NCBI GenBank assembly: GCA_028275705.1 | Contig: JAPWUD010000008.1 | Location: 1-59,466 of the forward strand | Reading direction: 5' to 3' | DNA from: Desulfurococcaceae archaeon | Lineage (GTDB): Archaea; Thermoproteota; Thermoprotei_A; Sulfolobales; Desulfurococcaceae | Length of the DNA stretch: 59,466 nt | In this document: one piece after another, positions 1,768-25,686 of the stretch | How the letters are laid out: each line of letters opens with the position of its first letter | Position numbering within the stretch: the first letter of the stretch is position 1 | Notes under the pieces: generated by a model | The model's database searches: none | What the model was told of the DNA's origin: nothing | Seen by the model: only the letters and a program-made list of their open reading frames with translations | Program-made: the position numbers and the translations under genes

Positions 1768-1800
1768 AAGTGGGAAAATTATTACTGGGTGAATTATAGT

Positions 1801-2814: not shown

Positions 2815-2831
2815 TCTATTAGACGATTAAA

Positions 2832-3314
2832 ATGGCTAAATATAAGAAGTATTTTTTACCCACACTCATAATTTCCATAATCCTAGTTATTACTCTATCA
2901 TATCCAGCCTACGTTGTTAATAAGATTGTAATTGACAATAGAGAATACCTTTTCGATACAAATACAAAAGTCAATATACACTTGGAGTATAAACACAGCG
3001 TTGAACTCACAAAGGTAATTGAAGAGTATGAGCTACGAGGATGCAGTATAGTATTGGAGAAATTTACATGGCCTGGTTATGGAGCAGGACTACCATCTAG
3101 GTATAATGATACAAGTATACAGGTATACACAAGTGAGGGATTTACAGTGACAAATAGGACTCTAGGCGTTAGTGTACTCCAAGTAGAGCTTAGATACATG
3201 GTTCAACCAAAACTACTCATTAACGGCTTAGAGGTTATGGGGGATAGATTAATCATCGAAGCCTGCACGAGGATTTCAATACTGGAACTATTACAATATA
3301 GGCTTTGGAGATGA
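2832..3314 (+). CDS. DUF1850-like TRAP-associated protein
   Basis: A 160-residue protein with an N-terminal hydrophobic segment (about residues 8-28) and then a beta-rich domain with LEYKHSVELTKVIEEYEL, which resembles the HSVE-containing core of DUF1850. DUF1850 proteins commonly sit between the receptor and the fused permease of TAXI-TRAP systems, as here (17 bp after the receptor). Its role is unknown; an exported accessory to the transporter is plausible. The family call comes from motif and context without a search. Confidence 0.65.
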   Translation: MAKYKKYFLPTLIISIILVITLSYPAYVVNKIVIDNREYLFDTNTKVNIHLEYKHSVELTKVIEEYELRGCSIVLEKFTWPGYGAGLPSRYNDTSIQVYTSEGFTVTNRTLGVSVLQVELRYMVQPKLLINGLEVMGDRLIIEACTRISILELLQYRLWR

Positions 3315-3391
3315 ATACCCCCTACGCTTGAGCGAAGTTTATATAGTCCAGGTTAATTAATAATAATACCATGTACTTTAAGGTGCTATGA

Positions 3392-5509
3392 GTGTCCGAA
3401 GTACTGGTCACAGAGAGAACTCTACCTAAGTACTTATTGAAGCTCATACTGGCCTTAGCATTTATATTTACAATCTATGAAGTCACCTTCGTAATGGGAC
3501 TCAACTTCGCACTCTACACTTTACTGAAAAATATAGGTCTAGACATTAAGCAACTCCTATATACACCGGACATACAGCAGAGTATGGCTTTTCTCCTCGG
3601 GCTACTTTTATTCTCATCTTATATCATATACCCTGTTAGGAAAAGAAAAGATATTGGGAAAGTCCCATTCTACGACTACATACTCGCCATAATTGCCTTC
3701 GCCTCTATGTTCTACCTAGTAGTAATATATCCCCGGGTTGTTCAAGTAGGCTATGTAGAGGCAACCTTACTAAATATAATAGTCCCCATGTTAGCCATAG
3801 CACTGCTATTAGAGGCCTCTAGGAGGATTCTTGGGCTAGCACTACCATTAATTACCCTCACAATACTAGCCCTTGGGCTTACATATGAGGAATTCAATAT
3901 TAGGAGATTTGTCAACCACATGTACTACGCGAGAGAGGGGGTATTCGCCATACCCCTCTTTGTCATGGTGTCCTATGTCTATGCATTCGTCCTCTTCGGC
4001 TCTATACTCGAGAAGATAGGGGTTGGAGAATACATTACAAAATTCACTATGTCTCTCGTAGGCCATAGATGGGGTGGACCCGCTAAAACAGCTGTGGTTG
4101 CAAGTGCACTTGTTGGGACAGTTTCAGGAAGCTCTGTAGCGAATGTACTGACAACAGGGACTTTCACTATCCCCTTAATGAAGAAAGCTGGTTATCCACC
4201 TGAGGTTGCAGGAGCTGTTGAGCCTGTTGCCTCGACTGGAGGTCAATTAATGCCACCAGTCATGGGGGCTGCTGCGTTTGTAATGGCACAGTTTCTCGGG
4301 AGACCTTATAGAGATATAATGATCGCCGCCGCGATCCCCGCAATACTCTACTTCACCTCTGTATACATCTACGTTGACAGAGTCACGAAAAAACTAGGCA
4401 TAAGACCTCTCCCACGAGAGCAACTCCCCAGGTTTAGAGAGCTACTCCCCGGAATCTACTTACTAAGCCCAATACCAGTAATAACCTGGCTACTACTCAT
4501 GGGTTTAGAGCCCCAGTACTCGGCTATTGCCGCTATTGGTGTAGCTATTATTTCTGCTATTCTCTACCAGAGAGGGGTGAGTTGGGGGACAAAGATCTCT
4601 GCTCCGTGTATACTAATCATAATCGGGATTGTGGCTTACCTACTTGGACTACCCGTTAGTGTCTCGCTATTCTTTGTAGGGTCTATTTCAATATTCATAG
4701 CGATAATCACAGGTATTCTACTTAGAGGTGTGCGTGGTATGAGTACTGCCTTAATTAGCGCTATTGAATCATCATTTAAGAATGTTGCAACTGTATTCTT
4801 TGCAGCTTCTTGTGCTGGGTTAATACAGGGTGTATTAACGATGACGGGGTGGGCTACTGATATAGGCTTTCGACTCGTTGACTTATCCGGTGGAAACGTA
4901 TTCATATTAATGCTTACAGCTATGTCTATAAGCCTCGTACTAGGCACTGGAGTGCCCACGACAGCCAACTATATTATAACATCAACAATTGTTGGTACCC
5001 CTATGGCGAGGGCAATATCTAGCATTACAGGCCTTGATCTAGAGGCAGCTAAACTAGTAGCGCACATGTTTGTATTCTACTTTGGAATAATTGCCGATAT
5101 AACACCACCAGTGGCTCTAGCATCCTACGCTGGCTCAATGCTAGCTAAATCCCACTTCTGGAGGACAGCGTTAAATGCAACAATATTTGGAACTGCGGGT
5201 TATCTCGTTCCATACATATTCGCACAAAACCCCACACTACTAATACTCCCCTCAGCCTCTAATACCCCCACAATAGTAATCTATAGACTAATAACTGGAG
5301 TCTCAAGCACAGTACTCACAATGCTGCTATTGAGCGCAGGGATTGTTGGGTGGCACTATACAAAAATAGGTAAAATACAGCGAGCAATACTAATAATACT
5401 AGGAGTTACGCTACTCACTCAAAACGAGTACATAGTACTAGTAGCACTAGCCACATACATAGGGCTCTATATGTACAATAAGAGAAGACAGAGGATAAAA
5501 TCCCACTAA
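3392..5509 (+). CDS. TRAP transporter fused permease (DctQ-DctM type)
   Basis: A 705-residue polytopic membrane protein. The N-terminal portion is the small DctQ-like unit, fused to a DctM-like unit from about residue 190. Hallmarks of the TAXI-TRAP permease are visible: GTVSGSSVANVLTTGTFTIP and further on STGGQLMPPVMGAAAF, with a second half-repeat carrying GTGVPTTANYIITS and DITPPVALASYAGS. It pairs with the receptor at 1801-2814 to drive ion-coupled uptake. The GTG start at 3392 follows AAGGTG by a few bases. Confidence 0.92.
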   Translation: MSEVLVTERTLPKYLLKLILALAFIFTIYEVTFVMGLNFALYTLLKNIGLDIKQLLYTPDIQQSMAFLLGLLLFSSYIIYPVRKRKDIGKVPFYDYILAIIAFASMFYLVVIYPRVVQVGYVEATLLNIIVPMLAIALLLEASRRILGLALPLITLTILALGLTYEEFNIRRFVNHMYYAREGVFAIPLFVMVSYVYAFVLFGSILEKIGVGEYITKFTMSLVGHRWGGPAKTAVVASALVGTVSGSSVANVLTTGTFTIPLMKKAGYPPEVAGAVEPVASTGGQLMPPVMGAAAFVMAQFLGRPYRDIMIAAAIPAILYFTSVYIYVDRVTKKLGIRPLPREQLPRFRELLPGIYLLSPIPVITWLLLMGLEPQYSAIAAIGVAIISAILYQRGVSWGTKISAPCILIIIGIVAYLLGLPVSVSLFFVGSISIFIAIITGILLRGVRGMSTALISAIESSFKNVATVFFAASCAGLIQGVLTMTGWATDIGFRLVDLSGGNVFILMLTAMSISLVLGTGVPTTANYIITSTIVGTPMARAISSITGLDLEAAKLVAHMFVFYFGIIADITPPVALASYAGSMLAKSHFWRTALNATIFGTAGYLVPYIFAQNPTLLILPSASNTPTIVIYRLITGVSSTVLTMLLLSAGIVGWHYTKIGKIQRAILIILGVTLLTQNEYIVLVALATYIGLYMYNKRRQRIKSH

Positions 5510-9249: not shown

Positions 9250-10650
9250 CTAAGTCTTCGAGTACTTATATCCATATTCCTCGCTTACTTCTACTAATGC
9301 CTCTTCTAGGATATTTAAGGTTTCATCTAGTTCCTCCTTCTTAATAACGAGTGGTGGCCTAATCTTTATCACATTCCTCATTGAGACTTCATCTCCAATT
9401 ATATCCGGCATGTCTAGTGCGTAGAGTGCGCCCTTCTCAAAGGCTAATTTCACAACTTCCTCGGCTTCATCCGTCGCCGGCTCCTTTGTCTCCTTGTTCT
9501 TTACAAGATCTAGTCCCAGGTATAATCCACACCCTCTCACATCGCCTATTAGATCAAACCTACTCTTCATGTCATTAAGCCTCTTCAATGCATAATCACC
9601 CATAACTCTAGCTCTCTCAACGAGGTTCAACTTCTCAATAACGTATAGATTCACTAGTGCTGCAGCATATGGCACTGGGTTACCGCCAAAAGTGGTGTGC
9701 TCCTCTGGATAACTAAGCCCCTTAATCCCAGCTTTTGCAAGAGTTGCACCAATAGGGAATCCACCACCAAGACCCTTAGTCAAAGTCATCATGTCTGGCT
9801 TCAATCCATGAAGATGTGCAACACTCCAAGCCCCAACTCTCCCATTAGCTGTCTGGGCTTCATCAAAGACTATGTAGAATCCATACTTCTCACCTAGCTC
9901 TAAAACCCCCTTCAAGTAGTCTCTAGGCGCTGGTATAACGCCTCCAGGTCCCTGGATAGGCTCTATTATTAATCCAGCAATGGAGTTCACACCCCTCGTA
10001 GAGTACTTTATAGTCTTCTCGAGGAACTCTAGGCATGTTAAGCCGCAGTCAGGGTAGCTCATTTTGAATGGACACCTATAGCAGTATGGATATGGATACC
10101 TAACAAACCTCTCCTCCCCGAAAGGCCTAAACCTAATCAATCCTGGAAGCGGGTGTGATGCCGCTGTTAAGGCGAGGCTATTTCCGTGGAAACTCCTCCA
10201 TGCAACGAGGAAAGTGTCTGCGCCTGGCTTATTAACCATTGCTAGCTTCATAGCCACCTCAATAGCCCAGCCACCACCCTGAGTATTCAACGCCACTCTC
10301 TCATACCCGTAGATCTCTCGTATCTTAAGCATTAGCTTTAATCTAGGTATTGTTGGATAACCATACCTAACGTGGTTTAGTAAACTAGCTTGGAGTGCAG
10401 CAGCATATACAACATCTGGGTGTGAATAGCCAACATTTAGAGTCCAAGCCTGGGATGTCATATCTATTATTCTACGACCCTTCAAGTCATATACAGCGGC
10501 TCCACCAGGCTCACCCCTAGTGAGTATTGTCTCCTCGAGACTTGTAAGGCTTGTTTTTCTAGCCTCTCTAATTGATGCCTCATCAATACTCGTTAGGAGA
10601 GCTCTAATCTCTTCTTCACTCATGAGAATGGGTTTTAACTCTAACACCAA
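9250..10650 (-). CDS. Class III PLP aminotransferase / amino acid racemase-like
   Basis: A fold-type I PLP enzyme. DEAQT at 263-267 contacts the cofactor and K292 in LTKGLGGG forms the Schiff base. A four-cysteine insert (C190, C193, C202, C206; CYRCPF then C-x3-C) is like that recalled for archaeal class III enzymes including the broad-specificity amino acid racemases and omega-aminotransferases of Thermococcales. Transamination of an omega-amino acid and racemisation are both possible. The TTG start has GGTG six bases upstream. The gene stands alone beside the disrupted HTH-CBS gene; a second class III enzyme lies at 25.8 kb. Confidence 0.82.
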   Translation of the reverse strand: MVLELKPILMSEEEIRALLTSIDEASIREARKTSLTSLEETILTRGEPGGAAVYDLKGRRIIDMTSQAWTLNVGYSHPDVVYAAALQASLLNHVRYGYPTIPRLKLMLKIREIYGYERVALNTQGGGWAIEVAMKLAMVNKPGADTFLVAWRSFHGNSLALTAASHPLPGLIRFRPFGEERFVRYPYPYCYRCPFKMSYPDCGLTCLEFLEKTIKYSTRGVNSIAGLIIEPIQGPGGVIPAPRDYLKGVLELGEKYGFYIVFDEAQTANGRVGAWSVAHLHGLKPDMMTLTKGLGGGFPIGATLAKAGIKGLSYPEEHTTFGGNPVPYAAALVNLYVIEKLNLVERARVMGDYALKRLNDMKSRFDLIGDVRGCGLYLGLDLVKNKETKEPATDEAEEVVKLAFEKGALYALDMPDIIGDEVSMRNVIKIRPPLVIKKEELDETLNILEEALVEVSEEYGYKYSKT

Positions 10651-10714: not shown

Positions 10715-11730
10715 CTAAAACCTACAATAACCTATTTTCAAAAAACTCAACAACCTCTCGCTCCTGGGTATAGGTTTAAAGACATGCTCCACGGGAGTGT
10801 CTGGGTCTAAGCCACTACTAATAAGCTTCAATAGATAGTATAAACTAGCATATCCATCTACACGGCCACTCCTAACTAAAAGAGCACACTCAACATTCCT
10901 CCCAGTCATTAATGCAAGCAAATTCCTCACACTAACACCCTTCTCGCAGGTAATAGGCTTTCTCACTCTAACAACGCGTTTTACAAGAACAACCACCCTC
11001 CTACCCACTCTATCAGACTCCAACACTAAGCCATCGACAACATAGCGGCCGAGCTTCACAATAATCCTCCTACCACGCCTCCAGTATAGTCTTTTCCATA
11101 AATTCCTCAACTCCATGGTTAAACTCCTCCCTGTTAGACACAGGGTAATAGTAGTAGAGATCCTAGAAGGCCTCCCACCCAGGGTCATTAATGCCGCACT
11201 TAAATAATCTCTCTTAGTAAATACAATTAGTGCTTTCTCAGTTGGAGTGTATCCTCCATAAGGGTTTCCCCGAGACAATCATCTGTAGTTAGCTGTAAAT
11301 AGTTGTGAACGCTTTTTCTTGCCTCGGGGTTCCCGGGCTCCGTTCGGGTTTTCATCGCATCACTGCCCGGGCTATCAGGGCTCCACATAACCCAAAAGCC
11401 CCTCATCCGCATTGAAGACAATAACTCAAACCCCAAAACTCATCATCAACGAGTAAATACACGTAGGGAGGTTAATAAATTTAAACCAACTATTCATAGT
11501 TATCCACAACTAATCGCAAGTAATTATAGATCGGTCACAGGCCCTCTCCTAGACTCTATGAGACCTAGAACTTTGAGAGCTGAAATAGCGTTTCTCACGC
11601 TACCCGGGTGAATACCTAGGTAAGAAGCTACTTCATCACTTTTAACTGGCCTATCATAGATCTTACTTAAGTCAATTATGCCTTCAAGTATTCTCTCCTG
11701 GAGTCTATTTAAATAGCCCATAAATACCAC
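10715..11730 (-). pseudogene. HTH (DUF293-like) plus CBS-domain regulator, split by a mini-element
   Basis: The 5' part (11730 or ATG 11721 to about 11539) encodes a winged HTH ending in LGLIESRRGP. The 3' part (11260 to 10715) resumes at YGGYTPTEKALIVF and continues with a basic beta domain (KLGRYVVDGLVLESDRVGRR) and a CBS-like domain (GVSVRNLLALMTGRNVECAL). Archaeal HTH-CBS proteins read PGPKGGYxPT across this junction, so the two halves belong together. Removing 278 bp gives RRGPYGGYTPT in frame. The original protein was probably a ligand-sensing regulator, perhaps of the neighbouring aldolase or aminotransferase genes. As it stands, only an orphan HTH fragment would be made. Confidence 0.8.
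11261..11538 (-). mobile_element. IS200/IS605-type mini-element without tnpA/tnpB (E2)
   Basis: This 278-bp insert is almost the same length as E1 but differs in sequence. On the minus strand it starts after GGCCT with GTGACCGATCTATAATT and ends near CTCGGGGAAACC. The frame inside it ends with a tail containing SDAMKTRTEPGNPEARK, which from memory resembles a crenarchaeal TnpB C-terminus. An inverted repeat of CCCCGAG lies around 11269-11333. The ends are ambiguous by 3 bp because AGG occurs at 11261-11263 and at 11539-11541. The element runs in the same direction as the gene it interrupts. The family assignment is inferred; the insertion itself is well supported by the split gene. Confidence 0.65.
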
Positions 11731-11802: not shown

Positions 11803-12444
11803 ATGTACTTGGATTTGAAGAGGAGAATAGTGGATGTTTTCAAGTATATGGATGAAAAGGGGTTAAATTACGGTAGATCCGGGAATATCAGCGTTAAAGT
11901 TGGAGATGACCGATTGTTGATCACGCCGAGCGGCGTTATTAAATCTGTCCTGTCCCCAGAAGATATTCTACTGGTATCTATAGATGGAGAAGTCATTGAA
12001 GGTAGGCACAATCCAAGCGTTGAAATGCCCCTCCACCTAGCCATATATAAGAGTTATAGCCACGTTGGAGCAATTATACATGCACACCCAGTATACACGA
12101 GTATACTAGCTGTTATTAGAGAGCCTCTCCCTCCAATAATCGAGGAGATGATGCTATATACTGGTGGTGAAGTTAGAGTAGCTGACTACGCTCCCTTCGG
12201 TACCGAGGAGCTAGCTGAGAATGCTGTGAAAGCACTTAAGGATAGATCCGCAGTTATACTTGCAAACCACGGTGTTGTAACCTGTGGTAGAAACCTAGAT
12301 GAAGCACTAGAGGTCCTAGTTGTCGTTGAGAGGGCTTCGCAAATATATGTACTTGCAAAACTAACTGGGAAAGTCCATAGTCTACCAGAAGAGATTGTTG
12401 ACTTCTATAAATCCCTATTCGCGAAAAAGATTATTGGGCAATAG
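11803..12444 (+). CDS. Class II aldolase (fuculose-phosphate aldolase / adducin family)
   Basis: A zinc-dependent class II aldolase-fold enzyme of 213 residues. Catalytic Glu is E74 (PSVEMPLH). Zinc ligands are H93 and H95 (HAHP) and H156 (ANHG). The family includes fuculose- and rhamnulose-phosphate aldolases, MtnB dehydratase, 3-oxo-tetronate-phosphate decarboxylases and 5-deoxyribulose-phosphate aldolase. It converges with the FGGY kinase-RLP operon with only 11 bp between stops, so it probably works on a phosphorylated product of that kinase. Specificity cannot be decided by sequence alone. Confidence 0.88.
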   Translation: MYLDLKRRIVDVFKYMDEKGLNYGRSGNISVKVGDDRLLITPSGVIKSVLSPEDILLVSIDGEVIEGRHNPSVEMPLHLAIYKSYSHVGAIIHAHPVYTSILAVIREPLPPIIEEMMLYTGGEVRVADYAPFGTEELAENAVKALKDRSAVILANHGVVTCGRNLDEALEVLVVVERASQIYVLAKLTGKVHSLPEEIVDFYKSLFAKKIIGQ

Positions 12445-12455
12445 AGAGTTTTACT

Positions 12456-14003
12456 CTATGACAACTTATTAAGGTATTTGTAGAGGCCTCTGTTACTCCT
12501 ATATGTTTTTATGAGTAACTTTAGCTTTCTCTCAAATACCTCCTCTAAGTTCCCCCTAGGCTTGAAGATTCTTTCAGGCTTAGCGATTTTCTTGGCATAG
12601 TTGAAATCCCCTAGTCCAAGACCCCTAACCCCTATTACCGCGGAGCCGATGGCGGAAGCCTCCCTCATGGTATTCATGCGCCAAACCTCAGCCCTCGAGG
12701 CGTCTGCAATGATCTGGCAGAGTGAGTTCCACATTGCTCCCCCACCTACAACGTATAGCCTTTGAACTCTCATACCTAGTAGTTTCTCAAAGTATACTTG
12801 AGCCCACTTAATATTCAATGCGATCCCCTCCATAACGGCTTCCAGCATATGGAATCTTGTGTCACTTAAACTTACATTGAATAGTGCGCCTCTTACAAAT
12901 GGATCATCTATTGGTACCCTCTCACCATAGAGCCATGGTAGGAACACTACTCTATTTGATGCAGGATCAACTTGTCCGATTCTCTCGTCAACTTCATCAT
13001 AGATCTTTTTATCTACCCCACCATATAGTAGCGAAATGATGTAATCCAACGCCACACAGCCACACTCTTGCTCAGCGATCAATAAGTACTTTCCAGGTAT
13101 TGCACTAACAAGTGTTCCAATAGCGTGGAAAATATCTAATTTCCTCACAGGGAGGTGTGCTGCAAGCCAGTCGCTAGTCCCTAGATATAAGTGTGTCTCG
13201 TAGTCTTCAACAGCTCCAGAACCTATTGCAGTTGCTGCCACGTCTCCAGAACCTATGACCACTCTAGTTTTCTCCGATAACCCCGTTTCCCTTGCAATTT
13301 CCTTCTTTAAATAACCCACAATTTCAATGGGTTTTTTAATTAATGGTAGTTTTTCAACATCTAGCTTAAGGTCTTTTATAAGTGCTCCACTCCACTCTAA
13401 ATCCCCCTTCCTCACATCTGCTAACCACGTTACATGTGCTTCATCAGCGTTGATTGCTGGTGCTCCCGTGAGCTTATATGCTATAAAGCCATTTACATTG
13501 AGGAATTTCCATGTATCTCTATAGATCTCCGGCATGTTTTTCATGATCCAAATAATCTTCGACAGTGGATCCTTACCTGTCTTACTTGGAGCACCACCAG
13601 TTATTCTAAGAAATTTTATTAGTCGGAATACATTGAAGCCGCTTATCTTTGGAAACCCTGAAAAGAGCTCTCTGGGCTCACCGGCTGATCTAACATCAAG
13701 CCACGTAATTAAATTATACAGCGGCTCTCCATCCCTCCCCACAGGGATTACTCCAAGCATTTGTGCATCCATAGATACTCCCGCAATTTCACCCGGATTA
13801 ATACTTGTTGAAGAAGCTAAATCGCTCATTACACCAATCACTTTCCTAAATAACTCACCTGGATCTTGCTCAGCCCAACCAGGCTTTGGGTAGTTAATAC
13901 TAAGAGGCTTAGTGGCTTTTGCAACAACCTCGGCTTTACCTACGTCTAGTAGAATCCCCTTAACAGAGCTTGTCCCAATATCTAGTGATATCAAGTACGT
14001 CAT
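12456..14003 (-). CDS. FGGY-family carbohydrate kinase, RLP-linked
   Basis: A 515-residue xylulokinase-like kinase. The N-terminal phosphate loop DIGTSS is at residues 8-13, the substrate contact MDAQ at 78-81, the catalytic Asp is D254 in GSGD, and VVGGGAMW near residue 418 belongs to the second ATPase lobe. It phosphorylates a sugar, polyol or sugar acid using ATP. It starts 39 bp after the RLP stop on the same strand and is probably co-transcribed, which points to a substrate whose phosphate ester is processed by the RLP. FGGY kinases vary widely, so the substrate is open. Confidence 0.9.
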   Translation of the reverse strand: MTYLISLDIGTSSVKGILLDVGKAEVVAKATKPLSINYPKPGWAEQDPGELFRKVIGVMSDLASSTSINPGEIAGVSMDAQMLGVIPVGRDGEPLYNLITWLDVRSAGEPRELFSGFPKISGFNVFRLIKFLRITGGAPSKTGKDPLSKIIWIMKNMPEIYRDTWKFLNVNGFIAYKLTGAPAINADEAHVTWLADVRKGDLEWSGALIKDLKLDVEKLPLIKKPIEIVGYLKKEIARETGLSEKTRVVIGSGDVAATAIGSGAVEDYETHLYLGTSDWLAAHLPVRKLDIFHAIGTLVSAIPGKYLLIAEQECGCVALDYIISLLYGGVDKKIYDEVDERIGQVDPASNRVVFLPWLYGERVPIDDPFVRGALFNVSLSDTRFHMLEAVMEGIALNIKWAQVYFEKLLGMRVQRLYVVGGGAMWNSLCQIIADASRAEVWRMNTMREASAIGSAVIGVRGLGLGDFNYAKKIAKPERIFKPRGNLEEVFERKLKLLIKTYRSNRGLYKYLNKLS

Positions 14004-14042: not shown

Positions 14043-15368
14043 TTACAAACCAAGCATTACAGCTAGTGCTCCCTTCTTATAAGCCTCTATAGCAGCCGCC
14101 AATTCAACTGCTTGCTTTGAATACTCCTCTAGAGGAATGCCCTTTAACGAGGCATCTATTGCCTGCCTAAAGGCTCTAGCCCCCGCTCTACTACCCATTG
14201 GGTGAGCATGTACCGCTCCACCTGCAGCGACCCCGACATCCACACCGAAGTCACTTATAAGTTTTGGTACTTCCAACTGTGTTATTCCACCAGAGGGGCA
14301 TGGTAGTGTCTGCTTCAACCCACTCATAGGCGCTCTAAGGTATTTTGCAACCCTCAAGTACTTCTCCCTTGTATAAGTTGGGACTTTACCATATGGAGCT
14401 GGATATATAACCATGTCCGCTCCTGCTAGTCTAACTAGTTTTCCATACAGTAGTATTGACGAAATACCTGAGTATGGTGAAACATATGACATCGAGCCAT
14501 AGTCTGGCGCGTGTGCTAGTATCGGGAGACCAATACTCGCGTCTTCAGCTAGTTGCTTAAATGCACCCAGCCCAACTGAGTATGCATTAACCATGAGGGC
14601 ATTACCACCAAGTTGTTTAACCCTCTCCGCTAGCTCAAAGAGCCTCGGTGGGTCGCTAGTGATATTGACTGTGTATAGCTTCCTCTCACCCGTCTCCTCA
14701 ACAGCTTTATCAAGCATCTCCATAAACTTCGAAACTCTCTCCTCAACTCTATTATAGCTTTGATTCGCCAACAACTCATCGTCTTTTATAACGTCTACAC
14801 CGCCAGCCCATGCTTCATAAGCTAGCTTAGCCCCTACATCTGGAGGTGTGTAAATGCAGGGCTTGATCATGGCGACTATCAACGGCCTCTCAGGTACCCC
14901 AAGTAGGCTCCTCAAGCCATCAATACCGAATCTCGGTCCTTTAAACAGTTTAAGATAGTCCTTGGGCATCCATATATCAACGAGCTTTATTCTACCGAAA
15001 GCCATTATATTCCCGGTGATCATAGAGAACATCGTCGATAAGTCATCCTCGAAGTTTATCCATGGAAATCCAATAGATATTATGAACCTCCTAAACCCCT
15101 CCTTCGGAGTCTCGATTTCGTAGTCCGGGATCTCGTATAATCCAACAACTTTCCCTCCGAGCATTCTCCTTGTTTCTGTGGTCTCAGCAGGGGTTCTAAT
15201 CCATGTACCAGTAGTTTGCTCCGCTGCAAATGCTCTAGCTACAATGTCTGGTGGGAACCCTGCAGGAATCTCTACTATGTAGTGCGCTACTACGTATTTT
15301 TCAATATCAATAGACTCAAATAAAACATCGAGAATGTCTTCATAGTCTACTCTAGGAACCTTCAACAT
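14043..15368 (-). CDS. RuBisCO-like protein (form IV RLP)
   Basis: A 441-residue large-subunit fold. Kept positions: E50, N120, K169 (equivalent to K175), the metal-binding K195-D197-E198 (K201, D203, E204 of RuBisCO), H286, loop-6 K328, S359 and the GG phosphate-binding motifs. Changed positions: C171 replaces K177, A287 replaces R295, and the H327 site is lost in IYPAPYGK. Carbamylation and Mg binding, hence enolisation, look possible, but CO2 fixation on RuBP is not expected. Known RLPs act as enolases, isomerases, or decarboxylases and transcarboxylases of oxo-sugar-acid phosphates. GGTGGG sits directly before the ATG. First gene of an operon with the FGGY kinase. Confidence 0.88.
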   Translation of the reverse strand: MLKVPRVDYEDILDVLFESIDIEKYVVAHYIVEIPAGFPPDIVARAFAAEQTTGTWIRTPAETTETRRMLGGKVVGLYEIPDYEIETPKEGFRRFIISIGFPWINFEDDLSTMFSMITGNIMAFGRIKLVDIWMPKDYLKLFKGPRFGIDGLRSLLGVPERPLIVAMIKPCIYTPPDVGAKLAYEAWAGGVDVIKDDELLANQSYNRVEERVSKFMEMLDKAVEETGERKLYTVNITSDPPRLFELAERVKQLGGNALMVNAYSVGLGAFKQLAEDASIGLPILAHAPDYGSMSYVSPYSGISSILLYGKLVRLAGADMVIYPAPYGKVPTYTREKYLRVAKYLRAPMSGLKQTLPCPSGGITQLEVPKLISDFGVDVGVAAGGAVHAHPMGSRAGARAFRQAIDASLKGIPLEEYSKQAVELAAAIEAYKKGALAVMLGL

Positions 15369-15469
15369 CCCACCAATAAAAGACTCAATGCAGATGCCTA
15401 ATATAGATTTGTAATGTTAAATCTATAAATCAATAAACAACATATAGAAGTATCAATGGGGTGACATAG
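15369..15469. promoter_or_regulatory. Divergent promoter region, RLP and small DUF6379-like gene
   Basis: This 101-bp gap holds TATA-like TTTATAGA on the minus strand near 15420-15430, which serves the RLP operon, and GGGGTGA just before the plus-strand TTG at 15470. A common regulator for both directions is plausible; the disrupted HTH-CBS gene 4 kb away is one candidate. Confidence 0.45.
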
Positions 15470-15832
15470 TTGGCTGTTCCAGCTATGATTCTCAGGAGGC
15501 TCTACGTTAAGAAGAGCTTAAAAAACACTAGTGAAGGCGTAGAATTCACATTGAAAAACATACTCGCAGATGCCACTATTACTAAGCCGCTGGAGATAAC
15601 AATAGACAATAACCCCGTTCCACTAGAGAAAGTGATTTTAGTCACAGAGAGTAAGACTATTCGAAACAATGAGATATCAAGTGAAAAACCACTAGACTTC
15701 TCACTAAATACAAGCATCATCATTAAAATTGAGGGGTTGAAACTAAACCCTGGACAACACAAAATCGCGATCTCTGGTGCTACAAAAGAATACGGTGACA
15801 TAAAGTTCGACGTATTGGATAAAATAGATTAG
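15470..15832 (+). CDS. Small beta-rich protein, possibly DUF6379 (C-deglycosidase beta-subunit-like)
   Basis: A 120-residue protein with RRLYVKKSLKNTSEGVEF at the N-terminus, a string of predicted beta strands, and LKLNPGQHKIAI near the end. From memory this resembles DUF6379, which includes the small beta subunit of C-glycoside deglycosidases, but that is a weak match without a search and no alpha subunit is next to it. The start is TTG with GGGGTGA about 6 bases upstream. It is divergent from the RLP gene, so it may belong to the same sugar pathway, perhaps as an accessory subunit. Confidence 0.45.
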   Translation: MAVPAMILRRLYVKKSLKNTSEGVEFTLKNILADATITKPLEITIDNNPVPLEKVILVTESKTIRNNEISSEKPLDFSLNTSIIIKIEGLKLNPGQHKIAISGATKEYGDIKFDVLDKID

Positions 15833-16180: not shown

Positions 16181-17293
16181 CTAAGTGGTAACACTTGTTT
16201 TCTCGCTTGTGCTTTGACTACTTGTTGGTGATTTTTCCCCTCCTGCTTCTCCCTCAACTTTGCTAATGATAGAGTTCACCTTGTTCTTGGGTAAACTATA
16301 CACTGGCTTCTCTGGGAGTAGTCCCTGCGGCCTGAACAATACTATTACTATTATTAGTAAGCCTATGAGTATGTATTCAAGCCACTCAGGGCTTATACCA
16401 ATTAATGTGCTTATAGCCCCCTTATACACTATGATTAAGAATCTTGCAATAGTGTATATTAATACACCTATGAAGATCCCTAAATTATTCCCAACACCTC
16501 CTAGCATCATAAACGCCCACGGCCAGAAAGTCCACTGAAGCCTAGTGTATGTTGAAGCCTTCATGCTCCCCGTGAAGAGTGCCCATATTGCACCTGCCAT
16601 TGCTGATATAGCCCCTCCAACAATCAATACTTGCTTCCTAGCTTTAACAACGTCTTTACCATACACAGCCGCAGCAACCTCAGAGTCTCTAATGGCCTTG
16701 AGCATTCTACCATAAGGAGACCTTGCAAGTAGCTCGGCATAGAAGTAGACTGCAAGAGCTACTATTAGAGCTGCAAGCGCCGCGATAGTGAATCTAAGCT
16801 GGGAGCCGACGAATGTGAAGGGATCTACTACGAATACCCCTGTTGTCCCACCGACGAGTGGGTCGTAGTTCCACGCTATTGTAACTGCTAAGTCCCCGAA
16901 GGCTAGTAGTGTAATGCCTAGTGTTTCTTTGAGTCTTAGCGCGGGGTATGCGCAGAGGAGGCCCATTAACCCCCCTATTAATGCAGCGATTATGAGTGTT
17001 AGAATGAATACTCCTATGGATAACCATGGATTACTAGCTAGTACTTTGTTAATCTCTGATACTATTTTGAAGTTGTGCATGTGGTCAGCATATTCAGCAC
17101 CCCAGGGGTAGCCAAGGATTGCTGCTAGTATTCTCCCAGGTACTGCTGCAGCTATGATGGCCCCCATGACAACAGATAGGAGTCTACCAAATTGCGGTAT
17201 ATTGAGGAATCCAACCTCGATATTCAGGCTTATAGTTATTATTAACCCAATGGCGAAGTTTATGATGATTAAGAGTAGTTCAGGGGGGATCAT
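16181..17293 (-). CDS. livM: Branched-chain-type ABC transporter permease LivM
   Basis: A 370-residue membrane protein with about nine hydrophobic segments and the LivM hallmark YGRMLKAIRDSEVAAAVYGKD, the cytoplasmic loop contacting the ATPases. The tail after LFRPQGLLPEK is hydrophilic and Ser/Thr-rich, longer than usual. It overlaps the LivH stop by about one base and is translationally coupled. With LivH it forms the channel of a HAAT-family importer; the substrate may be a branched-chain amino acid, amide, urea or an aromatic or sugar-derived acid. Confidence 0.9.
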   Translation of the reverse strand: MIPPELLLIIINFAIGLIITISLNIEVGFLNIPQFGRLLSVVMGAIIAAAVPGRILAAILGYPWGAEYADHMHNFKIVSEINKVLASNPWLSIGVFILTLIIAALIGGLMGLLCAYPALRLKETLGITLLAFGDLAVTIAWNYDPLVGGTTGVFVVDPFTFVGSQLRFTIAALAALIVALAVYFYAELLARSPYGRMLKAIRDSEVAAAVYGKDVVKARKQVLIVGGAISAMAGAIWALFTGSMKASTYTRLQWTFWPWAFMMLGGVGNNLGIFIGVLIYTIARFLIIVYKGAISTLIGISPEWLEYILIGLLIIVIVLFRPQGLLPEKPVYSLPKNKVNSIISKVEGEAGGEKSPTSSQSTSEKTSVTT

Positions 17294-18207
17294 TACTCTC
17301 TCACCTTGACGAAGAACCCCGCTAAGCCCTCAGGCTTTAGCAATAGTGTTATAGCCATGGCGGCTAGAGGTATTGCAGGTCTATATGCGTAAATCCACCC
17401 ACCCAGAACACTGCCCAATAGCGATATACCTAGAAACTCGCTGAGTCCAACGAGTAGTCCACCCAGTAAGCTACCGAATATAGAGAATAATCCACCCACA
17501 ATAGAGCCTGCAAAGAATGACACTATCATGGTCATTCCAGCAGCGGTGTATCCCGTAACGACGAGTGAAATTAGTAGTCCACTTAGAGTAGCTAGTGCTC
17601 CGCCAATAAGCCATGCAAGTGCATAGACTACGTCGGTGTTTATTCCACTAATACTAGCTAATGCAGGGTTTTCTATGGAAGCCCTCATTGCCACACCTAT
17701 CTTCGTCCTAGTTAAAAATATGTGGAGTGATACCACGATAGCCACTAGCACGAGGGGGGCAACTATACCTACAAGCCTTATGCTTGTATCTCCCACTTGG
17801 ATCATGATGTCCCTTGTCTCGAGCACGAAGAACTTAGCTGGGACTTTGTAAACCTGTATTAAGTAGTCTGATAGTACATTTAAAAATCCAAACATTACCA
17901 AGTCTACTCCAAGTGTTGACATCATTAAGTTTGTCTCTGAAGCTCTAGCTTTTAACAACCACTTATTCACTCCATAATAAGTGACAAGCCCTAGACCCCC
18001 ACCCACTAATATAGCTAGTGGAAGGGCATGGTATGGAGTGAAACCCAGTAGATACACCGCTATGAAGGCAACGTACATCCCATAGGAGACCATAGAGGCG
18101 TGGGCAAAGTTGAAGGTCCTAGTTGCATCATATATCATTGTTATTGATGCGGCTCCTATCCCAATACAGCTGGAGTACGCTATCGCCTTCACTATGAGGT
18201 CTATCAT
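17293..18207 (-). CDS. livH: Branched-chain-type ABC transporter permease LivH
   Basis: About 304 residues with eight or so membrane segments. FNFAHASMVSYGMYVAF is the conserved LivH N-terminal signature and TKIGVAMRASIENPALASISG is the coupling loop. ATG 18207 is preferred because GAGGGTG lies just upstream; a longer TTG at 18225 is in frame. First gene of the minus-strand half of the divergent liv cluster. Confidence 0.9.
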   Translation of the reverse strand: MIDLIVKAIAYSSCIGIGAASITMIYDATRTFNFAHASMVSYGMYVAFIAVYLLGFTPYHALPLAILVGGGLGLVTYYGVNKWLLKARASETNLMMSTLGVDLVMFGFLNVLSDYLIQVYKVPAKFFVLETRDIMIQVGDTSIRLVGIVAPLVLVAIVVSLHIFLTRTKIGVAMRASIENPALASISGINTDVVYALAWLIGGALATLSGLLISLVVTGYTAAGMTMIVSFFAGSIVGGLFSIFGSLLGGLLVGLSEFLGISLLGSVLGGWIYAYRPAIPLAAMAITLLLKPEGLAGFFVKVRE

Positions 18208-18225
18208 ACTATACACCCTCTGCAA

Positions 18226-18291: not shown

Positions 18292-19593
18292 ATGTCCACT
18301 CCAGCTAAAGTAACTAAAACACCATACATAGTAGCCGTAATCCTCTTAATTGTAGGCATCGTAATTGGCTACGGTATTGGATCCGTTACCGCTCCAAAGC
18401 CTGCAGAGGTGACAGCTCCCGTTGGGTTAACTGGAGAAGTAAGAATTGGTGCACTACTACCTCTTACTGGTGTTCTTTCAACTTTTGGAGCTCAATATAA
18501 AGAAGTACTTGCACTAGCTGAGAGCGAGATTAATGACTACCTCGCCGCCGCTGGTAAGAATTGGAGAATAAAGTTTGTAGTAGAGGATACTGCTACTGAT
18601 CCAAAGACACACTACGATAAACTTGTAGCACTACACGGTACCGGTGTGAAGATATTTATTGGTGGGGCTTCGAGCGCTGAGCTCTCTGAGTCTTTAACCT
18701 ACTGTAACCAAAACGATCTATTGATATTCTCGCCTTCATCAACATCGCCGGCTCTAGCAATAAAGGATAATGGATTTAGGTACACGCCAAACGACATAGT
18801 TCAGGGTAAAGCTATTGCCAGAATTATGTGGCTGCGGGGCATTAGGTGGGTTATACCAGTGTGGAGAGGTGATACGTGGGGTGATGGATTAAAGAGGTAT
18901 ACTGTAGAACGCTTCAATGAAATCTGCAAAGCGAGTGGTGAGAGCTGTGGCGTACTTGAAGATTACGGTATAAGATACGACCCAGCTGCCAAAGAGTTCT
19001 CTGCAGAGGCAGCTGCATTAGCGAGCCATGTTAGCGACGCTGTGTCAAAGTATGGAAAGGACAAAGTAGGTGTATTATTGATATCCTTCGAGGAGGCAGC
19101 AGCATGGTTTGCCGCTATTAAAGCATACCCAGTACTACTAGAGGTACAGTGGGAGGGCTCTGATGGAACAGCTGCTATAGCCCCCTTGCTAGACCCGAGT
19201 GTCGCTGATGTAGCTATAACTGTAAAGTTCTATAACACTATGGCTTCACCTGGAGTATCTCCACATGGTGAGAAAATAAGGAAGTTGGTGAGAGAGAAGC
19301 TTGGATTAGACCCAATGGGCTATACTTACTTCGCGTATGATATAGCGTGGACAATAGCGCTTGCAATTGATGCTGCAGGAGCATATGATACTGCCAAGGT
19401 AAAGCAAGTACTCCCATATGTTCTAGAGAGATATCTAGGTGCATCAGGCTACATCAAGCTGGATGAAAATGGAGATAGAGCAATTGCAGACTACGACTTA
19501 TGGGCAGTTGTAAAAGTTGATGGAAAACCACAGTGGAAGGTTATCGGGCTATACCACGGATTAACAGATAGTGTCGAATGGTATACTAGCTAG
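18292..19593 (+). CDS. livK: Branched-chain-type ABC transporter substrate-binding protein LivK
   Basis: A 433-residue periplasmic-binding-protein type I fold. An N-terminal hydrophobic anchor (residues about 12-31) without a lipobox cysteine tethers it outside the membrane. EVRIGALLPLTGVLSTFG is the start of the Leu/Ile/Val-binding domain. Divergent from livHM and followed 58 bp later by livG. The sequence does not identify the ligand; given the aminotransferases and kinases around, an amino acid, amide or sugar acid are all possible. Confidence 0.9.
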   Translation: MSTPAKVTKTPYIVAVILLIVGIVIGYGIGSVTAPKPAEVTAPVGLTGEVRIGALLPLTGVLSTFGAQYKEVLALAESEINDYLAAAGKNWRIKFVVEDTATDPKTHYDKLVALHGTGVKIFIGGASSAELSESLTYCNQNDLLIFSPSSTSPALAIKDNGFRYTPNDIVQGKAIARIMWLRGIRWVIPVWRGDTWGDGLKRYTVERFNEICKASGESCGVLEDYGIRYDPAAKEFSAEAAALASHVSDAVSKYGKDKVGVLLISFEEAAAWFAAIKAYPVLLEVQWEGSDGTAAIAPLLDPSVADVAITVKFYNTMASPGVSPHGEKIRKLVREKLGLDPMGYTYFAYDIAWTIALAIDAAGAYDTAKVKQVLPYVLERYLGASGYIKLDENGDRAIADYDLWAVVKVDGKPQWKVIGLYHGLTDSVEWYTS

Positions 19594-19651: not shown

Positions 19652-20428
19652 TTGTCTTATATTCTCGAAACAGTAGATTTGACTAAGAGGTTTGGAGGAC
19701 TCGTAGCCGTTGACCACGTCAACATTAAAGCCACAAGAAACAAGATGACACTACTAATAGGCCCCAATGGAGCTGGCAAAACAACTGTTATTAATCTATG
19801 CACCGGCGTTAAGAAGCCCGATGAGGGAAAAGTCTACTTTAACCCAACAGGAGATAGGAAGATAGATATAACTGGTTGGCCTTCACACAAGATCTACAAA
19901 CTCGGCTTTGCAAGGTCTTTCCAAATACCACAACCCTTCCTAGCACTCACAGTATTGGAAAACGTCCTCGTAGCTATGAGGGGTTCTGGAGAAGACCCTG
20001 TCTCCCCACTACTACGGGGTAAGTGGACGAGAGAGGAGGAGGAGAGAGTTGAGAGAGCATATAGAATCCTCAAGTTAGTCGGCCTAGATAAGTTGTGGAA
20101 TTATGAGGCTTTTAGACTTGGTGCAGGGCAGTTGAAAATGCTTGAAGTTGCACGTGCACTCGCTGCAGACGCTAAACTAGTTGTACTGGACGAGCCTATT
20201 GGTGGAACAGATCCTAAGTACGCCCGCGATATATTCCTCAAGTTGAAGGAGCTCTTGACGAAGGTAGATGTAACTTTCCTCGTAATAGAGCATAGAATAG
20301 ACATTGCACTACCATATGCTGACTACGTCTACGTCATGGATAGGGGTAAAGTTATTGCTGAGGGCTCTCCAAACGATGTAATTAACAACCCTAGAGTGAT
20401 CGAGGTTTATATAGGTGAGAAGAAGTGA
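19652..20428 (+). CDS. livG: Branched-chain-type ABC transporter ATPase LivG
   Basis: A 258-residue ABC ATPase. Walker A is GPNGAGKTT (about residues 37-45) and Walker B is LVVLDEP. The signature reads LGAGQLKMLEVARAL where LSGGQ is usual; other core motifs are intact, including the switch His in VIEHRID. The TTG start has GGTGA seven bases upstream. It overlaps livF by four bases and the pair form the heterodimeric motor for LivHM. Confidence 0.92.
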   Translation: MSYILETVDLTKRFGGLVAVDHVNIKATRNKMTLLIGPNGAGKTTVINLCTGVKKPDEGKVYFNPTGDRKIDITGWPSHKIYKLGFARSFQIPQPFLALTVLENVLVAMRGSGEDPVSPLLRGKWTREEEERVERAYRILKLVGLDKLWNYEAFRLGAGQLKMLEVARALAADAKLVVLDEPIGGTDPKYARDIFLKLKELLTKVDVTFLVIEHRIDIALPYADYVYVMDRGKVIAEGSPNDVINNPRVIEVYIGEKK

Positions 20429-21132
20429 TCAAAGTAGCCAACCTCTACTCGGGTTACGGTAAGCTAAAGGTGCTCTTCGATGTAAGCACTGCTACAGAGC
20501 CTGGAAGAATAACGGCTGTGGTTGGTCCAAATGGAGCTGGGAAGACAACTCTCTTGAACAGTATAATGGGATTAGCGACAATATATAGTGGTAAGATTAT
20601 GCTTGAAGACAGGGACATCACTGGAATGCCAACACATAAAGTAGCTAGATTGGGTGTAGCCTACGTACCCCAGCTTTTCAGTGTATTTGCGAATTTACTC
20701 GTAGAGGAGAACTTGAAGATAGCAGCCTACATGCTACCCGAAGAGAGAATGAGAGATAGATTAGAGCTGGTCTACAGCTTGTTCCCCGTTCTAAAGGAGT
20801 TTAGGAATAGGAAAGCTGGAACACTCAGCGGTGGTGAGAGGAGAATGCTCGCTATAAGCATGGGTTTAATGAAGGAGCCTAAAATACTCCTCTTAGATGA
20901 GATAACAACAGACTTAGCACCAATAATGGCGAAGAAAGTACTTGAGAAAGTCGTGGAGTTAAGGGACACACTTAAACTCACTATACTCCTAGTAGAGCAG
21001 TACGCAGTGAGAGCTCTCGAAATAGCGGATAAAGCATACCTACTCGTAAGCGGGAGTATAAGGTATGAGGGAAACCCACAGGAGCTACTACAACACCCAG
21101 AGTTCTCAAAGCTATACCTAGGAGTAGCTTAA
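20425..21132 (+). CDS. livF: Branched-chain-type ABC transporter ATPase LivF
   Basis: A 235-residue ABC ATPase with Walker A GPNGAGKTT, canonical signature LSGGERRMLAI, and Walker B ILLLDEITTDLAP, where the usual DEPS is DEIT. It ends with VEQYAVRALEIADKAYLL, the typical LivF switch region. Start overlaps livG by four bases. Partner of LivG in the importer. Confidence 0.92.
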   Translation: MIKVANLYSGYGKLKVLFDVSTATEPGRITAVVGPNGAGKTTLLNSIMGLATIYSGKIMLEDRDITGMPTHKVARLGVAYVPQLFSVFANLLVEENLKIAAYMLPEERMRDRLELVYSLFPVLKEFRNRKAGTLSGGERRMLAISMGLMKEPKILLLDEITTDLAPIMAKKVLEKVVELRDTLKLTILLVEQYAVRALEIADKAYLLVSGSIRYEGNPQELLQHPEFSKLYLGVA

Positions 21133-21499
21133 ACAACTATATAAATCCTGTTATTTTTATAAGGCTCAATAACACTTCTGCAGGCAACATTACTTGATTA
21201 GCCCTATAAAAATACTGTATATTATCAACTTAAGATCACTCTACACTTATCGACATTCAAACAGGATCTAGTAATAAACAATAAATTCAATAACATTACG
21301 AACTACTCAAACTAGTGAACGAGTAAGCTAACACCACTTACTATTTGTAGTGGCCAACGTAAAAACTTTTAGCCCACGTATCACAATTAATTATAGAGAG
21401 ACAACAAACTCGCCGATATAGAGCAAGGAGTCGTGAAAGGATATCTTCAATCCAGTGTGATATTAAAAACTGATCCTTGCGTAGTGAGTAAACGCATAA
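21133..21499. other. Intergenic region between convergent genes
   Basis: A 367-bp AT-rich gap between livF and the LOG-like gene. T-rich runs just after livF (about 21150-21160) may end transcription. No open frame, RNA or repeat was recognised. Confidence 0.4.
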
Positions 21500-23503: not shown

Positions 23504-24922
23504 TTGTTCTACGTAGGCGTAGACATTGGTACCTCATCCATTAAATTCATAGTCCTAAATGAAAAGCTTAATATTACTGAGACTATACAGCGTGAAGTAG
23601 ACTTGTCCATCAATAAAGATAACACCGTCCAATACAACCCCACACAAGTATACGAATTAATTAGAAAAGAGCTTGAAAAACTCTCCTCTAAGTATGGACA
23701 TATAAGCGTAGGACTCAGCTGCCACTCACCATCACTCGTGATCATGGATAAAGATGGAAACCCTCTTGAGACCATCATATGGTTAGATAAGCGGGCTGAG
23801 AGAGAAGTAAGCGACCTACTTGCTTTAATCAACGAGAGAGAGCTCTACTACAAGACGGGTCTAAGAGCATCCCCACTATTCTTTCCAGCTAAAATACTGT
23901 GGGTTAAGAAGAATAAACCATGGATACTGGATAAGGCAAAGTGGATTATTCAACTAAAAGACTACATATTCTACAAGCTCACGGGTGAACCCTACACAGA
24001 TTACTCAATGGCTTCTGAAACACAATTATTCAACATTAGAAAGAAGGACTACGATGATGAATTGCTGGGGATTCTTAATATTAGTAGGGACCAGCTCTTT
24101 AATCTTGAGCCTTCAATAGTTGCTTACAAGTCAAAGGAGATACAAAATACTGAAATAGCCCTTGGTGGAGTAGACTCCGTAGTAGCTGCAACGGGTGCTG
24201 GCGTGGTAGAAGAGTCATTTGCATCCATAGTTGCCGGTTCGTCAGCCTGCATAGACATACCAACACCTAGTCCAATACTGAACTATGAAAGTGGGTTTGA
24301 AACATACTTCCATGCAATACCAAACAAATACGTTCTCGAGGCTTGTCTACCCACAGCGGGACTAGCAGTTGACAAGATCCGAGAATTAACAAGTACTCAA
24401 CCCGATGAGTATTTAAGCGAGGAATCCGCTACTCTATCCATTAATTTACTATTCTTACCGTTTCTAATGGGTATTCGGAGTCCAGACTGGAAGCCTGATG
24501 TAAAGGGATTAATATATGGCTTAGACCTATCAACCCGTAGAAGCGACTTCTTGAGAGCAGTATACGAGGGTGTTGCCTACTGGATTCGAGAGGAGCTTGA
24601 AATAGCTGAGAAACTAGGCCTAAATATTCGAGAAATCATCGCCTCCGGTGGTATGACTCGCTCAACTCTATTTAGTAAATTACTCGCATTGATTACAAAG
24701 AGGAATGTGAGACTAGCTACAACACCCGAGGTTACTGGTTTAGGGGCAGCGTTAATTGCCGGGGTTTCATCGGGTTTGATTAATTGGAGTGAAATACCTA
24801 GAATAGCTTGGAGTAGTATAGTTTATAAGCCAGGCGAGGAATCTGCTTATTATGAAGATAGGTATATATTATATATTAGACTAAAGAAGTTCCTCATTGA
24901 GTTATCTCGTGGGAGCAGGTGA
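23504..24922 (+). CDS. FGGY-family carbohydrate kinase, second copy
   Basis: A 472-residue kinase, shorter than the copy at 12.5-14.0 kb. Phosphate loop DIGTSS (residues 7-12), catalytic D224 in GGVD, and IIASGGMTRSTLF in the second lobe are present. The substrate region reads LSCHSPS, unlike MDAQ in the other copy, so the two probably use different substrates. TATA-like CTTATATAAAT lies near 23481-23491. Its stop overlaps the PRTase regulator start by four bases (GTGA), so the two are co-translated. Confidence 0.88.
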   Translation: MFYVGVDIGTSSIKFIVLNEKLNITETIQREVDLSINKDNTVQYNPTQVYELIRKELEKLSSKYGHISVGLSCHSPSLVIMDKDGNPLETIIWLDKRAEREVSDLLALINERELYYKTGLRASPLFFPAKILWVKKNKPWILDKAKWIIQLKDYIFYKLTGEPYTDYSMASETQLFNIRKKDYDDELLGILNISRDQLFNLEPSIVAYKSKEIQNTEIALGGVDSVVAATGAGVVEESFASIVAGSSACIDIPTPSPILNYESGFETYFHAIPNKYVLEACLPTAGLAVDKIRELTSTQPDEYLSEESATLSINLLFLPFLMGIRSPDWKPDVKGLIYGLDLSTRRSDFLRAVYEGVAYWIREELEIAEKLGLNIREIIASGGMTRSTLFSKLLALITKRNVRLATTPEVTGLGAALIAGVSSGLINWSEIPRIAWSSIVYKPGEESAYYEDRYILYIRLKKFLIELSRGSR

Positions 24923-25686
24923 TAGGAGGTTTGAGTGTTGATAACTATATTCTCAGTGAGGAGTTCTACTGTAGATTGGGTATTGCTAGAAGCTCTATGA
25001 AGCTATATGACCTTGCAAAAATGCTGGGACTAGATAGCAGTGTGGTTAGTAAATATATTCATGGGGTGATAGAGCCCAGCAATAAAAAGAAGAGGATATT
25101 ACTAGATAAGCTAAGATCGTTTGACTACATACAGCCACTAAGTCAGTGTGTTTCTTCGAGTGTCTATCCATTTCCAGAAACTAATAATATACTCCATGGA
25201 TGCCCACACCTAATCCACTGCGTATTGTATGAGGCAATGGTGTTCATGAGGGAGCTAAACCCCGACATTATATTCACAATAGAGGGAGGAGGATTGTCTA
25301 TTGCATCTATACTACACTACTTAACAAAAGCCAAGGTGGTTTATGGATTGAGAGATGTTATAGTTAGTGGTGGACACAGTGTGTCGAGTAATGGAAGCTC
25401 GCTTGATACCTGGAACCCAAGAGTTAAGAGATACATTACTTTCCCAATGAGGAGCAAGATTATCGGTGAGAACGCGTTAATAATTGACGATATTGCATGG
25501 ACTGGCAGTACCTGTATTACTATCTACAAGTACATAAAGAAGAAATTCAATGTAAAGGGTGTATTCCTAATAGCTTCCTTTGAATCCGCATTGAAGAGGA
25601 TTTATAGTGAAGTAAACGCACCTGTAAAATCCATTATTGTGTTTCCAGACTCCTATAGAGTAAAACTCCAGTCTCTAGCGGAGTAG
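24919..25686 (+). CDS. HTH-phosphoribosyltransferase-fold regulator (GfcR/PurR-like)
   Basis: An N-terminal HTH (about residues 28-50, LYDLAKMLGLDSSVVSKYI) is fused to a type I phosphoribosyltransferase domain with the PRPP loop ALIIDDIAWTGST (186-198). This is the layout of archaeal PRTase-type regulators such as haloarchaeal GfcR, which control sugar-degradation genes. The GTG start is coupled to the upstream FGGY kinase by a four-base overlap. It probably senses PRPP or a phosphorylated sugar and regulates this operon; that role is inferred. Catalysis is possible but less likely. Confidence 0.75.
   Translation: MIGGLSVDNYILSEEFYCRLGIARSSMKLYDLAKMLGLDSSVVSKYIHGVIEPSNKKKRILLDKLRSFDYIQPLSQCVSSSVYPFPETNNILHGCPHLIHCVLYEAMVFMRELNPDIIFTIEGGGLSIASILHYLTKAKVVYGLRDVIVSGGHSVSSNGSSLDTWNPRVKRYITFPMRSKIIGENALIIDDIAWTGSTCITIYKYIKKKFNVKGVFLIASFESALKRIYSEVNAPVKSIIVFPDSYRVKLQSLAE

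Follow-up and report, generated by a model that had tools for sequence, protein, structure and literature searches.

Reactions are known for few RuBisCO-like proteins (RLPs), and the known functions are those of MtnW, methylthioribulose-1-phosphate isomerase, and apionate decarboxylase and transcarboxylase (PMC6302742). For RuBisCO itself, H294, R295, H327, and K334 have been named as key substrate-binding residues (PMC8698309). Two of the described proteins stand close to the RLP reported here: MtnW (2,3-diketo-5-methylthiopentyl-1-phosphate enolase, form IV), which is the nearest solved structure both by sequence (2oek) and by fold, and OiaX (3-oxo-isoapionate-4-phosphate decarboxylase), which likewise occurs together with a kinase of the sugar type and with a transporter. 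In the open-access literature, with most subscription papers lying outside the search, no paper was found that describes an archaeal RLP partnered by an FGGY kinase.

The window, that is, the whole stretch of DNA analyzed here, comprises 59,466 nucleotides of a Desulfurococcaceae archaeon (GCA_028275705.1, contig JAPWUD010000008.1, positions 1 to 59,466). A sequence-only reading of this DNA had placed an RLP-centered sugar-catabolic module at positions 14,043 to 15,832. This span holds the RLP gene and a small divergent gene, while the kinase and the aldolase that were counted to the module lie outside it (Table 1).

Table 1. Features of the RLP locus in the window
Feature	Coordinates	Strand	Remarks
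Class III aminotransferase or racemase	9250..10650	-	Aminotran_3, 253 bits
Winged-helix/CBS regulator, C-terminal (CBS) part	10715..11278	-	tblastn with the intact G322 copy
Regulator, HTH part	about 11540-11722	-	Beyond the 262-bp insert
Class II aldolase, neighbor	11803..12444	+	Aldolase_II, 188 bits
FGGY carbohydrate kinase, XylB-like	12456..14003	-	515 aa; Pfam FGGY_N/FGGY_C; under every equivalog cutoff
Direct repeat TATTTGTAG (9 bp), left boundary of the block absent from G321	12475..12483		Window/L082 alignment
RuBisCO-like protein (RLP)	14043..15368	-	441 aa; Pfam RuBisCO_large, active-site table, AlphaFold model, six-member clade
Small protein, PF25653	15470..15832	+	120 aa; divergent from RLP; predicted C-glycoside deglycosidase beta subunit fold
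LivM-type ABC permease	16181..17293	-	Pfam BPD_transp_2, 103 bits
LivH-type ABC permease	17293..18225	-	ORF adjoins LivM; assigned by position and sequence
ABC substrate-binding protein	18292..19593	+	Pfam Peripla_BP_6 / ANF_receptor
LivG-type ABC ATPase	19652..20428	+	Pfam ABC_tran, BCA_ABC_TP_C
LivF-type ABC ATPase	20425..21132	+	Assigned by position and sequence
Direct repeat TATTTGTAG (9 bp), right boundary of the block absent from G321	21342..21350		Window/L082 alignment

The RLP is a member of the RuBisCO superfamily, with significant matches to both large-chain domains: 170 bits (9e-50, far above chance) against a cutoff of 30.1 for Pfam RuBisCO_large (PF00016), and 37.6 bits against a cutoff of 20.7 for RuBisCO_large_N (PF02788). 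The assignment, which had been made by eye from motifs, is thus upheld by the Pfam score and by the active-site residues, which were read from an alignment with solved RuBisCOs and RLPs (spinach numbering for the references). The metal-binding K195, D197, and E198, together with K169 and the loop-6 K328, corresponding to spinach K201, D203, E204, K175, and K334, are all present, whereas K177 is replaced by C171, R295 by A287, and H327 by I321, and the alignment therefore agrees with what the sequence-only reading had claimed for both sets. H298 is also gone, while E60, T65, W66, N123, H294, S379, G380, G381, G403, and G404 are retained. The pattern extends to the five orthologs: throughout the six-member clade E60, T65, W66, N123, K175, K201, D203, E204, H294, K334, S379, G380, G381, G403, and G404 are kept, with the metal and P1-site residues invariant, and none of the six has K177 (which is C or D), H298, R295 (A, T, or S), or H327 (I). 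By what is established on RuBisCO structure, the retained residues serve to bind metal, P1 phosphate, and carboxylate, and the missing ones the second phosphate. Given that the P2-site residues are lost and the P1 site is kept, the RLP would be expected to act on a monophosphate. With K177, R295, and H327 lost in all six orthologs, these proteins are not bona fide RuBisCOs of forms I-III, and they classify by residue content as form IV RLPs in the broad sense of homologs without the essential carboxylase residues.

Assignment to a described family is not reached by any of the NCBIfam models, given that all scores of the RLP lie under their cutoffs: 332 of 409 for MtnW, 286 of 513.6 for a second MtnW model, 267 of 497 for rubisco_III, and 185 of 700 for OiaX. 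In phmmer searches MtnW (2oek, 253 bits) ranked above the RLP of C. tepidum (216) and RLP2 of R. palustris (199), and the solved structures closest to the AlphaFold model (pLDDT 82) are MtnW and archaeal RuBisCO.

In a maximum likelihood tree of 72 proteins, built from references other than IV-Photo, IV-DeepYkr, and IV-GOS, the six RLPs form one clade (support 100/98), separate from form III, from the OiaX-like proteins, and from MtnW. This is the placement that the sequence-only reading had put forward as a check, and constraining the clade to group with form III was rejected (p-AU 8.6e-8), which together with the rubisco_III score places the RLP outside form III. Grouping with MtnW was rejected less strongly (p 0.013). 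A role as the methionine-salvage enolase was considered and rejected on this result and on the MtnW scores, and no mtn genes are found beside the RLP gene. The clade occurs in 6 of the 229 genomes of the class, at 66-84% identity, and is restricted to Desulfurococcaceae (the window genome, G322, which is the Desulfurococcaceae MAG KUA_Bin13, G238, G307, and G308) and one genome of a neighboring family (G424). A scan of genome contigs returned a single ortholog and, beyond it, four distantly related bacterial RLPs, and a search of phage records gave no matches. Just outside the clade, on a long branch (support 98/85), lies an RLP of G011, whose gene sits beside an OiaK-like 3-oxo-acid kinase (391 bits of a cutoff of 700) and a gene of the Asp/Glu-racemase family. 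With apparent glycosidase genes around them, they make up an archaeal cluster (L047 7116-10543) that resembles those for apionate. Another archaeal RLP type, with K177 replaced by N and with R295 and H327 kept, is found in G420 (L085 4627-11715), flanked by UPF0261 (Tm-1-like) and PEP-hydrolase-like genes, and G136 carries three different RuBisCO-family genes on contigs C45, C49, and C56.

The kinase gene lies 39 bp from the RLP gene, as had been described. Both FGGY domains are present (147 and 81.5 bits), and the protein belongs to the FGGY kinase family. Its best NCBIfam match is XylB, with 263 bits against an equivalog cutoff of 380 that would identify a xylulokinase; it scores far under the fuculokinase and rhamnulokinase cutoffs, and none of the FGGY subfamily models gives a substrate above cutoff. 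FGGY kinases usually act on ketoses or polyols, and less often on sugar acids. Orthologs of this kinase are found in exactly the RLP-carrying genomes of the family (5/40, p 1.5e-6), and in G424, outside the family, the kinase gene lies 2 kb from the RLP gene; the corresponding distance in G238 is about 9 kb. The kinase of G307 is the most divergent, with 36-38% identity. The kinase and RLP trees share the branching order G307 | ((G308,G424),(window,(G322,G238))), and both recover the G308/G424 pair, which spans two families, indicating that the two genes have travelled together. The link is strong, and the FGGY kinase is the regular partner of the RLP, in line with the sequence-only reading. 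The further claim that the known RLP pathways use other kinases holds for the apionate-type RLPs, whose neighboring kinases are of the four-carbon acid sugar kinase family and not FGGY. Elsewhere in the window (23504-24922, + strand) lies the gene of another FGGY kinase, with 27% identity to the first one. By eye, the genes that come after it appear to encode an HTH-phosphoribosyltransferase (24919-25686), another class III aminotransferase (25761-27239), and a permease of the amino-acid type (28317-29888).

What is observed is the family membership, the active-site residues, the co-occurrence and matching trees of the two genes, and the joint loss with a transporter described below. An RLP that has lost the residues for CO2 fixation and is co-inherited with a sugar-kinase gene in six related genomes suggests that some sugar-like molecule is broken down by a pathway not yet described. 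We give a probability of about one half to a two-step module in which the FGGY kinase acts first and the RLP acts on the resulting monophosphate. The kinase would phosphorylate a keto-sugar or keto-acid, probably imported through the adjoining ABC transporter, and the monophosphorylated keto compound would be bound by the RLP through its intact P1 pocket, the second phosphate pocket being gone, with a predicted carbamylated K195 and with D197 and E198 holding Mg. The likeliest reading of the residues is that the RLP would then enolize or decarboxylate this phosphorylated substrate. Decarboxylation of a beta-keto sugar-acid phosphate, as in OiaX, would be somewhat preferred to isomerization because the RLP retains K328, K169, and N120, the counterparts of the RuBisCO residues that bind the carboxylate, whereas K328 is changed in pure enolases and isomerases and N120 also in MtnW. 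The OiaK-like kinase beside the G011 RLP also argues for decarboxylation, a support that is weakened by the long branch of that protein. Against the explanation as a whole, R295 is present in OiaX but missing from the window clade, the RLP scores higher with the MtnW model than with that of OiaX and has its nearest solved folds in MtnW, FGGY kinases act on sugar acids less often than on ketoses or polyols, and the G307 kinase is divergent.

It is possible, if on balance doubtful, that the chemistry involves no carboxylate, the RLP enolizing or isomerizing a ketose-1-phosphate in the manner of MtnW and the methylthioribulose-1-phosphate isomerase, with the FGGY kinase acting at C1 like fuculokinase and rhamnulokinase. 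The top sequence and fold similarity to MtnW is as expected from this alternative, the P2 pocket is replaced in a similar manner in the two proteins (AHAPD...IYPAPYG in the RLP versus AHPAF...LFPSPYG in MtnW), and the neighboring aldolase is of the ketose-1-phosphate type. Nonetheless, the residue that is Lys at position 123 in MtnW is N in the RLP, K334, lost in MtnW, is kept, the grouping with MtnW was rejected, the kinase lies far from the fuculokinase and rhamnulokinase cutoffs, and the aldolase does not co-occur with the RLP.

This last point also bears on the proposal that the FGGY kinase, the RLP, and the class II aldolase form one obligate catabolic pathway. The kinase and aldolase genes converge, as had been reported, at a distance of 11 bp, and the convergent arrangement in G322 and G238 speaks for a functional trio. 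However, 16 of the 40 family genomes have aldolase orthologs (at least 55% identity), and this RLP is missing from 13 of these (p 0.31 for co-occurrence); G307 and G308 have only relatives of 33-34% identity, elsewhere in the genome; and no aldolase ortholog lies within the 20 kb around the RLP gene of G424. The aldolase of G143 lies near genes that by eye are amidohydrolase-like, and the sister genome G321 retains its aldolase after losing the cassette. With this distribution the aldolase was rejected as a fixed RLP partner, the link between the two is weak, and an obligate trio is unlikely. The search for the trio in other genomes, proposed in the sequence-only reading, thus recovered RLP and FGGY kinase together, with the aldolase left untied. 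The aldolase is probably an independent gene. Its best NCBIfam matches are ribulose-1-phosphate and fuculose-1-phosphate aldolase, and such an enzyme cleaves 5-deoxyribulose-1-phosphate in a salvage route (PMC6079011); by analogy, it probably serves salvage of 5-deoxyribulose- or methylthioribulose-1-phosphate rather than the RLP pathway. The small gene, and to a lesser degree the class III aminotransferase, track the RLP better than the aldolase does.

The small gene is indeed divergent from the RLP gene, as had been noted together with a likeness to DUF6379, which is visible in the predicted fold and not in the profile. The protein matches PF25653 with 92 bits, whereas the DUF6379/CGDB model gives 17 bits, under its cutoff of 27.6. 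For its AlphaFold model (pLDDT 79), the top 17 fold matches in the PDB are all C-glycoside deglycosidases (E 2e-7 to 3e-4, TM 0.6-0.7). It is thus like the CGDB proteins (DUF6379: DgpB, DfgB, CarB) in predicted fold and unlike them in profile score and in having no xylose-isomerase-like alpha-subunit gene beside it, the one PF01261 gene of the genome being on another contig, and it does not qualify as a CGDB member. The gene is present in four of the six RLP genomes (the window genome, G322, G238, and G307) and also in G420, beside MFS-like and GH1-like genes, and in G421, both of which lack the window-type RLP. In G307 it runs in the same direction as the RLP gene, 47 bp apart, and in the three others the two are divergent. 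The protein may serve the RLP or a glycoside-processing step. In C-glycoside deglycosidases the beta subunit aids substrate binding, with a lid domain that closes over the active site of the alpha subunit (PMC12141560). By analogy with this pair of TIM barrel and beta subunit, the small protein could conceivably, with low probability, be a lid-type subunit of the RLP in a new reaction on a phosphorylated keto-sugar, which would give a RuBisCO-like enzyme a new kind of small subunit.

In the alignment of the window with L082, the sister species G321 (about 95% identity) is missing the 8,867 bp between the two 9-bp repeats. This block contains the complete Liv-type ABC transporter, the RLP gene, the small gene, and nearly all of the FGGY gene; still present in G321 are the aminotransferase, a regulator remnant, the aldolase, and the downstream SLOG-family gene. 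Given that G321 retains the last FGGY codons, it is the genome that lost the block. These codons, and the FGGY-aldolase arrangement that G322 and G238 share, make one deletion in G321 a simpler account than horizontal insertion of the cassette into the window genome, which was rejected. The Liv-type transporter is the probable uptake system of the cassette. The other RLP loci carry different transporters (Opp in G307 and Ssu-type in G424, calls made partly by eye; in G238 an MFS transporter together with a GH1 glycosidase; and in G322 a Pot-like transporter, partly by eye, accompanied by NagA, SIS, and EIIA genes), which ties the transporter to the module only weakly. Since it is not conserved, its link rests on a single deletion, possibly a chance one. 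A TAXI-TRAP transporter (NMT1_3 binding protein, DctM permease) is encoded at 1789-5509 (+) of the window, an observation in an archaeon, and a truncated RLP gene, a decaying copy of which only the first ~170 residues align, adjoins an Opp transporter in G044 (L045 9436-10059), with a binding protein that resembles that of G307. The patchy distribution, the G321 deletion, and this truncated copy would all fit an RLP that is non-catalytic or decaying beside an ordinary pentulokinase. Nonetheless, such an RLP is very improbable with open frames in all six orthologs, metal and P1 residues unchanged over 66-84% identity, and a matching kinase tree.

Close orthologs of the class III aminotransferase (at least 73% identity) are found only in four of the RLP genomes (the window genome, G322, G238, and G307) and, as partial copies, in G321 (association p 3e-4). 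In G307 the aminotransferase, a HisC-like transaminase, and the FGGY kinase are encoded in a tight run, and in G308 and G424 the FGGY gene instead comes directly after a saccharopine-dehydrogenase-like gene. These genes hint at removal of an amino group, or an oxidation, ahead of the phosphorylation. Given that the aminotransferase persists in G321 without the cassette, a pathway for an amino compound is kept as a lead only. The regulator gene (10715-11722, - strand) is split by the insert at 11277-11538, which is missing from G321, and its HTH and CBS portions no longer share a reading frame; the intact homolog in G307 combines an HrcA-type HTH with CBS. Part of the insert, 28 nt long, is found again at 30680-30707 (89%). 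At 425-1451 (-), a gene for an HhH-GPD DNA glycosylase is broken into two overlapping ORFs (888-1451 and 425-901), and its counterpart in G322 is a single ORF of 254 aa (L041:16186-16950).

A second RuBisCO-family gene of the window genome (G000:C18:149779-151041(-), on another contig) has the full residue signature and groups with the form III RuBisCO of T. kodakarensis, and AMP phosphorylase is found above cutoff. The archaeal AMP pathway is therefore covered elsewhere in the genome, the RLP is something else, and its candidacy as the AMP-pathway RuBisCO was rejected. That it is still a RuBP carboxylase, as a divergent form III enzyme, is hardly credible beside this bona fide form III enzyme, the loss of K177, R295, and H327 in all six orthologs, and the rejected form III placement, even with the carbamate lysine, the metal ligands, N123, H294, and K334 kept.

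Compared with the known systems, the RLP shares with the T. kodakarensis form III RuBisCO (1geh) the fold, the carbamate lysine, N123, and K334, and differs from it in being without K177, R295, H298, and H327. The partner kinase shares both FGGY domains with the XylB-type pentulokinases and falls in its own clade tied to the RLP. With MtnW the RLP has the metal and P1 sites in common, and R295, H298, H327, and K177 are lost in both, whereas position 123 is Lys in MtnW and Asn in the RLP, and K334 is lost in MtnW (S) and kept in the RLP. The MtnRLP-like bacterial proteins have R at 334 where the RLP has K. OiaX and the RLP both keep K175, K201, D203, E204, H294, and K334 and lack K177; OiaX differs in keeping R295 and in its four-carbon acid sugar kinase partner, and the RLP, with its OiaX score far below cutoff and an FGGY partner, is not OiaX. 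The co-inherited kinase-RLP pair makes the function testable in vitro with two purified hyperthermophilic proteins, and, should the RLP be a decarboxylase or transcarboxylase, it would bear on the origin of RuBisCO CO2 chemistry in archaea. The residue pattern of the window clade matches none of MtnW, the MtnRLP-like proteins, and OiaX and is its own: the P2 site is lost as in MtnW, and the carboxylate-handling residues are kept as in RuBisCO. The kinase partner, too, comes from a different family than the kinases that neighbor the apionate RLPs.
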